DNA of 64,000 nt from Promethearchaeota archaeon. GTDB lineage: Archaea > Asgardarchaeota > Lokiarchaeia > Sigyniarchaeales > SOKP01. The stretch is from the NCBI GenBank assembly GCA_020343655.1, contig CP070805.1, positions 1,047,503 to 1,111,502 of the forward strand, given 5' to 3'. This document shows positions 49,479 to 54,954 of the stretch, piece by piece. Below the pieces are notes generated by a model, which worked only from the letters and a program-made list of their open reading frames with translations, made no database searches and had not been told where the DNA came from. Every line of letters begins with the position of its first letter. The first letter of the stretch is position 1. A program made the translations under genes and the position numbers.

Positions 49479-49811
49479 TTGTCAGAATTTGAACAAAAGG
49501 TATTGAAGTTACTAGAAGATATTAATAGTAAACTTGACAAATTGTTAACAGCTGAGCCTGTTAAAGCTACTCCAGCAAATTATACCCCAAAACCTTCAGT
49601 TGCACCCTCTCCGGCAGTATCAACAGTTAAACCTTCAGCAGTTGTTGATAAACAGGAAATGGAAGAAAAAATGAAGGAAAAACCCCCTATAGAGGGTAGG
49701 AGGGTCTGTTCTGAATGCGGAGGGACTGCTTTTAACACTGTTGAGGATAAAACACAAGTATTACATCAAATGGGCGGCGTAAAGATATATGCTAAATGTA
49801 ATATATTATAA
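49479..49811 (+). CDS. Zinc-ribbon protein interrupted before its second CxxC pair
   Basis: TTG at 49479, with GAGGAG 5' of it, gives an N-terminal helix (SEFEQKVLKLLEDINSKLDK) and a Pro/Ala/Ser-rich linker. The ribbon then begins PPIEGRRVCSECGG and ends prematurely after VKIYAK at TAA 49809-49811. The missing half, KKYICRNCGAEM, is encoded in another frame at 49826-49864, directly after a 32-base segment. The homologous ribbon of the gelsolin at 53947 reads RIYGKKYRCGECG without interruption, so the two halves clearly belong together. A T-rich terminator follows the true 3' end, not the premature stop. The full protein would be about 117 residues. Confidence 0.7.
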   Translation: MSEFEQKVLKLLEDINSKLDKLLTAEPVKATPANYTPKPSVAPSPAVSTVKPSAVVDKQEMEEKMKEKPPIEGRRVCSECGGTAFNTVEDKTQVLHQMGGVKIYAKCNIL

Positions 49812-49821
49812 ATATATTGCA
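49797..49821 (+). other. Perfect hairpin inside the segment splitting the zinc-ribbon gene
   Basis: The sequence TGTAATATATT, loop ATA, AATATATTGCA folds into an 11-base-pair stem (one G-T wobble) with a 3-base loop. It lies within the 32 bases (49797-49828) whose removal rejoins the reading frame. The codon before the gap and the last codon of the gap are both AAA. Insertion, intron or programmed bypass are the possible explanations. Confidence 0.55.
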
Positions 49822-49880
49822 GGCAAAAAAGTATATTTGTAGAAATTGCGGCGCCGAAATGTAATCCTTCAATAAAAATC

Positions 49881-53946: not shown

Positions 53947-54954
53947 TTATTTTTCACGCCACTGAACTCCACATTCACCGCAACGGTATTTTTTTCCATA
54001 AATACGTGGATAATCAAGTATAATATTTGATTTATCTATACTTTCGTGAATCATAAGCGGATTATCGTTGTCACATTCAGGACATTTTCTTCGTCCTTCA
54101 ATCTTTTCAATAGTTAATATGGAGGCATCAGTTCTTCCGGGTATTCCAGGAGCCGCTCCTGAAGCTTTAACATCAGAAATATCAGCTTTTACTTCTTCTG
54201 GAGATACCTCTTTAACCTCTGATTTAAATTCAGGTTGGATTGCTGCCGCAATTCTATCATCAGCATCTTCACCTTCTAACACAGATTCAGCTTTTAATTG
54301 GACAGCATCAGATTCCTTATAGTTTTCCCCTCTTCCTAAAGCTGCTATAAATTCTGCGTCATTACTTTCTTCAAAGATTGTTTCTTGTTGTAGTCCCGCC
54401 CTATCAGCATCTATAGCACGTGCCCATTGACCCGCCTTAACACGTTCTTTCACAGTACTAGTATTTCCTTGCCAAATGTACACCTTATTCCCTAAATCAG
54501 CAACGAAACAATCTTCAGATTCTAAAGATTCTTTCTTAAAGGGAACTTGAATCATTTTCATGGCATTGATATCCTCGAACTCCTCTGAGGAGACACGATA
54601 TAGAACATTTTTCCATTCTGTAAAACCTGCCCAATCACCCGTAGTTACATCTTTGAGCAATGTTTTAGCATAATTTTTTTCTACTATTTTAATTGCTCCC
54701 ATTGGATTAATCGCTTTCATGAATTCCTTTGGTTCTTGCCCCTGATCCACTGTAATTATTTTAGCAGCACCGCCACGTTGTTGATCAAGTGTCCTTGCTT
54801 GAGCGGCACCAGCAGTCTTTTCATCAACAGAGCATTTATTACCAATCCAAACATATATAGTCTTCTCATCATCCACAAGATAAACGTCTCCACTAGAAAA
54901 GATGAGTTTATTGATTTCTTTTAAATTTCCTTGTTCTATTAGAAAAAGTTTCAT
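53947..54954 (-). CDS. Asgard two-domain gelsolin with a C-terminal zinc ribbon
   Basis: A 335-residue protein. Domain 1 (about 8-90) has VYLVDDEKTIYVWIGNKC and the helix DEKTAGAAQARTLDQQRG. Domain 2 (about 105-205) repeats the pattern, with CFVADLGNKVYIWQGNTS and the helix VKAGQWARAIDADRAG. These are gelsolin repeats that in Asgard archaea bind and sever actin in a calcium-dependent way. Residues about 210-280 are an acidic/alanine linker. Residues 287-335 are a zinc ribbon (C291, C294, C325, C328) like that of TFIIS. The zinc ribbon closely resembles that of the broken gene at 49479. No actin gene is in the window. Confidence 0.9.
   Translation of the reverse strand: MKLFLIEQGNLKEINKLIFSSGDVYLVDDEKTIYVWIGNKCSVDEKTAGAAQARTLDQQRGGAAKIITVDQGQEPKEFMKAINPMGAIKIVEKNYAKTLLKDVTTGDWAGFTEWKNVLYRVSSEEFEDINAMKMIQVPFKKESLESEDCFVADLGNKVYIWQGNTSTVKERVKAGQWARAIDADRAGLQQETIFEESNDAEFIAALGRGENYKESDAVQLKAESVLEGEDADDRIAAAIQPEFKSEVKEVSPEEVKADISDVKASGAAPGIPGRTDASILTIEKIEGRRKCPECDNDNPLMIHESIDKSNIILDYPRIYGKKYRCGECGVQWREK

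Follow-up and report, generated by a model that had tools for sequence, protein, structure and literature searches.

A 32-base insert in a lokiarchaeial zinc-ribbon gene is probably a very short pre-mRNA intron of the bulge-helix-bulge type

Results

A zinc-ribbon gene interrupted by 32 extra bases

The DNA analysed (the window, a stretch of 64,000 nucleotides) belongs to a member of the Lokiarchaeia whose genome, G000, is a single contig of 2.27 Mb. A small gene on its forward strand opens with TTG at position 49479; its product has a helix at the N-terminus, joined by a low-complexity linker to a zinc ribbon. The frame runs as far as KIYAK (the last lysine being the AAA at 49794-49796), continues with CNIL and ends at a TAA stop (49809-49811), and the residues KYICRNCGAEM, followed by another TAA (49862-49864), are encoded further 3' in a different frame. 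The second cysteine pair is cut off from the frame by 32 extra bases, whose removal joins IYAK to KYIC and completes the zinc ribbon IYAK-KYICRNCG. An earlier interpretation made from the letters alone (the sequence-only reading) had described this split, and the same arrangement was seen here; it had also taken the gelsolin ribbon at 53947-54954 on the minus strand as a model of the intact join, and this ribbon does read RIYGKKYRCGECG, the orthologues described below encoding the same join. Its placing of the segment at 49797-49828 was right in length, but the start can slide anywhere from 49794 to 49797 over a run of A, and bulge-helix-bulge (BHB) geometry gives 49796-49827. The strong T-rich terminator that it placed after the second stop proved to be only a run of T with no hairpin.

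The proposed organization of the gene is as follows:

49479-49795, + strand: exon 1, with the TTG start, the N-terminal helix SEFEQKVLKLLEDIN and the first knuckle, CSEC (by translation; the start and the N-terminus are conserved among orthologues)
49796-49827, + strand: proposed 32-nt intron, without counterpart in orthologues (from the fold and the register test; ends from BHB geometry)
49828-49864, + strand: exon 2, with the rest of the lysine codon, KYICRNCGAEM including the second knuckle, CRNC, and the TAA stop (motif conserved in orthologues)

The protein matched no Pfam family above the cut-off. The predicted structure of an orthologue (mean pLDDT 73) showed a helix, predicted with confidence, at the N-terminus and two strands resembling a zinc ribbon at the C-terminus, and its structural matches were weak (E > 1). 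Many of these were zinc-ribbon subunits of RNA polymerases, a likeness that is only a hint of function.

Two related genomes carry analogous inserts

The gene was found throughout the family, and the motif IYAKKY[IV]C..CG was intact in 89 of 94 locus readings from Lokiarchaeia, repeat loci of the same genomes included. The sequence-only reading had allowed that all homologues might be truncated at the same place and lack the second CxxC; the alignment of the locus showed instead intact orthologues that encode the join. The five readings without the intact motif came from three genomes of one genus only, namely G000, G015 (JAHPZE01) and G004 (CP070831.1, a complete chromosome). G015 has 30 extra nt (TGTAATTTATAAAAAGTTACATGCAGAAAA) at the same site as G000, including an in-frame TAA, and G004 has 30 extra nt (AATTGTTATTAGAGTTCCTAATAATAGCAA) with several stops, 12 coding nt downstream of the G000 site. 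All three inserts are hairpins, and the second knuckle is intact behind each of them.

An assembly or sequencing error, which the earlier interpretation had also considered, might be suspected because G000 is a single contig that seems to derive from a metagenome and has a completeness rating of 81.7%. Analogous but non-identical inserts are nevertheless present in two independently assembled genomes, the G015 contig standing at about 71x and G004 being complete, so a slip in the assembly of a single genome does not account for the insert, and we give an artefact almost no credence.

The inserts pair with the upstream exon in the register expected by a splicing endonuclease

The fold of minimum free energy of the 66-nt precursor at 49780-49845 in G000 comprised the following elements:

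49783-49789, + strand: exon helix, 5' strand AGATATA, paired with 49832-49838
49790-49793, + strand: central 4-bp helix, 5' strand TGCT in exon 1, paired with GGCA at 49822-49825
49794-49796, + strand: 5' bulge AAA, predicted cut 49795/49796 (cut rule from PMC2738675)
49797-49821, + strand: intron hairpin with an 11-bp stem and the loop ATA at 49808-49810
49822-49825, + strand: central helix, 3' strand GGCA, within the intron
49826-49831, + strand: 3' bulge AAAAAG, 6 nt against the canonical 3, with a putative cut at 49827/49828
49832-49838, + strand: exon helix, 3' strand TATATTT

The 11-bp stem with a three-base loop that the sequence-only reading had noticed was confirmed (UGUAAUAUAUU/AAUAUAUUGCA, one G-U pair, loop AUA). 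A 91-nt fold of the site gave z = -3.6, and none of 200 shuffled sequences folded as well.

In the BHB motif a 4-bp helix lies between two bulges of 3 nt each (PMC6379350), and cleavage falls between the second and third residues of the bulges (PMC2738675). In each of the three genomes, the four nucleotides that immediately follow the hairpin form a helix with four from the upstream exon and leave a 3-nt 5' bulge, which is the 5' half of a BHB. When the standard rule of cutting after the second bulge nucleotide was applied without fitting, it excised 49796-49827 from G000, exactly 32 nt, with a predicted spliced junction of GCTAA joined to AAAGTATATT. The rule was equally exact in G004 (helix UUGU/GCAA, bulge AAU), where it removed 30 nt and gave YVC-KQCG across the predicted junction of TGTAA with ACAGTG; the BHB-like fold of G004 becomes suboptimal once more flank is included. 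In G015 (helix UGCA/UGCA, bulge AAA) the frame requires the 3' cut to lie 4 nt past the central helix and not 2, that is, 2 nt later than the rule places it. When the exon flanks were shuffled and the hairpin was kept, a central helix in register arose in 1.0%, 1.2% and 1.5% of trials for the three inserts. The joint chance would be about 2 in a million if the three were independent, and the true value is less extreme because the G000 and G015 inserts may share ancestry. Two features of a strict BHB, the second 3-nt bulge and the exon helix, were incompletely represented: the 3' bulge has 6 nt in G000 and is ill-defined in G015 and G004, and the 7-bp exon helix of G000 has no clear equivalent in the other two. 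The motif is therefore at best the relaxed HBh' form.

This pairing also bears on ribosomal bypass, which the sequence-only reading had put forward by analogy with T4 gene 60 and in which the ribosome would hop over the hairpin from the AAA at 49794 to the AAA at 49826, as in that gene or in the byp elements of Magnusiomyces mitochondria. Both G000 and G015 do have the hairpin, the matching AAA codons and, inside the gap, a stop in frame. The match, however, lies in runs of A in the two genomes and is weak evidence, because its 3' side in G000 is a run of six A; G004 offers no identical take-off and landing pair that rebuilds YVCKQCG, its best pair yielding YVCNCG with a CxC; and bypass does not predict that the upstream exon pairs with the end of the insert, as it does in all three cases. 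We consequently hold bypass to be highly improbable.

Other kinds of intron were rejected. Neither the window nor loci L018 and L014 contained an Rfam match, and 30-32 nt is far too short for a group I or group II intron. A spliceosome-like GT-AG segment picked out by eye (GTAATATATTATAAATATATTGCAG) has 25 nt and leaves the wrong frame.

A probable heteromeric EndA in the genus and many tRNA introns in G000

G000 encodes the RtcB ligase and two proteins of the EndA family (L072 and L073, at about 622264 and 2000931 of the contig). The alpha homologue keeps the catalytic histidine (GPGVEHS); among solved structures, the closest to it in sequence is the tRNA-splicing endonuclease 3p1z, which we take to be the (alpha-beta)2 enzyme of Aeropyrum pernix. 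The second paralogue lacks this histidine, and two EndA genes were present in all five genus genomes tested. Two genes, one of them without the catalytic residue, suggest that the EndA of this genus is of the heteromeric (alpha-beta)2 type. Efficient cutting of relaxed motifs is confined to endonucleases of the (alpha-beta)2 and epsilon2 types (PMC6379350), and by analogy with these the enzyme of the genus would be expected to cut such motifs.

An 864-kb sample of G000 and G004 yielded five intron-containing tRNA genes and none that was intron-free. Genome-wide, roughly half of the tRNA genes recognised by ARAGORN, whose intron ends are uncertain, had introns, some at unusual positions. At the G000 tRNA loci (L112-L132) the predicted introns measure 8-33 nt, a size similar to that of the zinc-ribbon insert. 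As a control of partial use, eight tRNA introns were tested; only two shared the same strict geometry, which speaks against the intron reading as far as the ARAGORN ends can be relied on. Introns occur in 92-95% of the tRNA genes of other Asgard lineages and are dense in Atabeyarchaeia and Freyarchaeia (PMC11291895). The tRNA-Lys UUU of G000 is one example of an unusual position, with some 30 additional nt behind its anticodon stem. A tRNA-Sec gene was also found in G000 (L124), and in G004 an in-frame TGA (L059, 8516-8545) lies in GKGADGIVIGA-TGA-YQGECD, which resembles an MvhD/VhuD-type hydrogenase subunit with selenocysteine.

Inserts are scattered within the genus and confined to one gene in the sample

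The three insert-bearing genomes did not form one clade in an rpoB tree (AU test, p = 2e-6, and far lower for G000 with G015), and the gene is intact in G009, the sister of G015. This implies either that inserts were gained two or three times at least or that a single gain was followed by many losses, and the scatter indicates that gain or loss was recent. ATGTAAT is found at the start of both the G000 and the G015 insert and TGCAG close to the end of both, a likeness that may point to a common origin or to the insertion of related introns.

Orthologue comparison disclosed no other insert among 79-128 gene-sized places per genome. A reference-free scan of both strands of 464 kb of G000 (about a fifth of the genome) and 400 kb of G004, in which canonical geometry and a restored frame were required, placed the inserts of these two genomes among its top three hits; no other convincing intron emerged from the 864 kb, and the hits of the loose scan mostly look like gene boundaries. 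The cbf5 gene showed neither a frame break nor signs of an intron in 19 genomes, and this lack of introns in cbf5 and the other genes sampled weighs to some degree against the intron reading. Within this limited sample, the zinc-ribbon gene looks like a hot spot for inserts.

The sequence-only reading had recommended searching for further copies of the hairpin segment; with up to 3 mismatches, the 19 genus genomes yielded the single G000 copy, and it is therefore not a currently repetitive element. The search of viral contigs found no relative. That the insert is instead a small palindromic mobile element which spreads as DNA and merely happens to sit in this gene would fit its scattered distribution, its presence at the same site in two non-sister species and the short A-run duplication at its edges. 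Yet the segment has no second copy in the 19 genomes, the roughly 80-130 places compared per genome hold no other insert, and a DNA element needs no pairing between exon and insert, so that we think this explanation very unlikely. It overlaps with the intron reading insofar as the intron may itself be mobile.

Two further genomes differ at the locus. In G017 only a 3' tail of the gene is left (AKKYICRNCGREV, from about AKKYICRNCG; L261 15790-15850, about 35790-35850 of contig C30); the upstream part has been replaced by unrelated genes, and the break lies a few nucleotides from the G000 intron site, possibly by coincidence or possibly because the site is fragile. The orthologue of its sister G005 (L170, 635-961) does not resemble the G017 remnant but belongs to a divergent type, QQGGMKIYAK, seen elsewhere in another genus, which suggests replacement by horizontal transfer.

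The main rival to splicing is that the insert is not removed, and that the gene either was recently disabled or yields a shorter protein that lacks the second zinc knuckle. G017 lends this some weight, its gene being broken with just the exon-2 tail ahead of a conserved radical-SAM gene: as the 5' part has been lost there, the gene is not essential genus-wide and an unspliced insert might be tolerated. G014, whose region is split over contigs, has no detectable orthologue. As the inserts are recent, a disabled gene would not yet show decay of exon 2, and splicing is here predicted from sequence. Against this, three separate hairpins of 30-32 nt, each with exon pairing in the register of the endonuclease, are unlike random lesions, and the second knuckle is intact in G000, G015 and G004. 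On balance, we consider a disabled or shortened gene unlikely.

Discussion

Few introns of protein-coding genes are known to be removed by the tRNA splicing enzymes, and those were described from crenarchaea; Asgard archaea are the closest archaeal relatives of eukaryotes. We propose, with good though not full confidence, that the 32-base insert is a very short pre-mRNA intron of the relaxed BHB type, processed by EndA and interrupting a lysine codon behind its second base (phase 2). The sequence-only reading had left an intron, a mobile insert, a bypass element and a fresh pseudogene side by side. An EndA-type intron is the best supported of these because exon-intron pairing and cut positions agree with it and comparable inserts occur in related species, whereas bypass founders on G004 and a repetitive element on the lack of further copies in the 19 genus genomes.

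In the precursor, UGCU of the exon would pair with GGCA at the 3' end of the intron, beside the hairpin that forms the intron body, leaving a 3-nt bulge on the 5' side, in the relaxed HBh' form of the BHB. A heteromeric EndA of alpha and beta subunits would then cut after the second base of each bulge and release 49796-49827, and RtcB would join the exon ends. The spliced message would encode the complete zinc ribbon, and the unspliced one a protein that stops at KIYAKCNIL; as this product lacks the second cysteine pair, splicing could in principle control the gene. Cleavage, ligation, the exact ends and any regulatory role are what we infer for the proposed G000 intron from its sequence.

Since analogous inserts occur in the same gene of three related species, this Asgard group probably splices at least one messenger RNA. 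More tentatively, Lokiarchaeia may remove mRNA introns with their tRNA splicing enzymes, and the zinc-ribbon gene may be a hot spot of repeated gain and loss within the genus, perhaps through reverse splicing or as a control on the making of the complete ribbon; we regard this wider proposal as plausible rather than probable. The literature searched, which covered neither preprints nor most subscription papers, held no report of protein-coding introns of the tRNA type in Asgard archaea, and as far as it shows the proposed intron is new for Lokiarchaeia. Close species with and without it offer a system for tracing how an mRNA intron is gained and lost. In practice, split genes of this kind would come out of gene callers as truncated or as pseudogenes.

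The inserts recall three known systems. With T4 gene 60 and mitochondrial byp (PMC8211752) they share a short hairpin gap containing a stop and, in two of the three species, matched codons, but G004 has no matched-codon solution and bypass leaves the exon-intron pairing unexplained. The central 4-bp helix, the 3-nt bulge and the size range are those of relaxed HBh' introns in archaeal tRNAs (PMC6379350, PMC4090602), from which the G000 insert differs in sitting in an mRNA, with no tRNA body to aid recognition. On the best reading, it is an EndA-type intron of the kind known from cbf5 of Sulfolobales and Desulfurococcales, whose introns span 16-44 bp, have unconventional BHB motifs and are cut after the second bulge nucleotide (PMC2738675). 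A protein-coding gene, a hairpin, the size range, lineage-specific gain and loss and a host with (here probable) heteromeric EndA are common to both, and the cut rule is shared by G000 and G004, G015 needing a later 3' cut, whereas the inserts proposed here, on sequence grounds, to be spliced lie in a zinc-ribbon gene of Lokiarchaeia/Promethearchaeia and occupy two insertion sites in that one gene.
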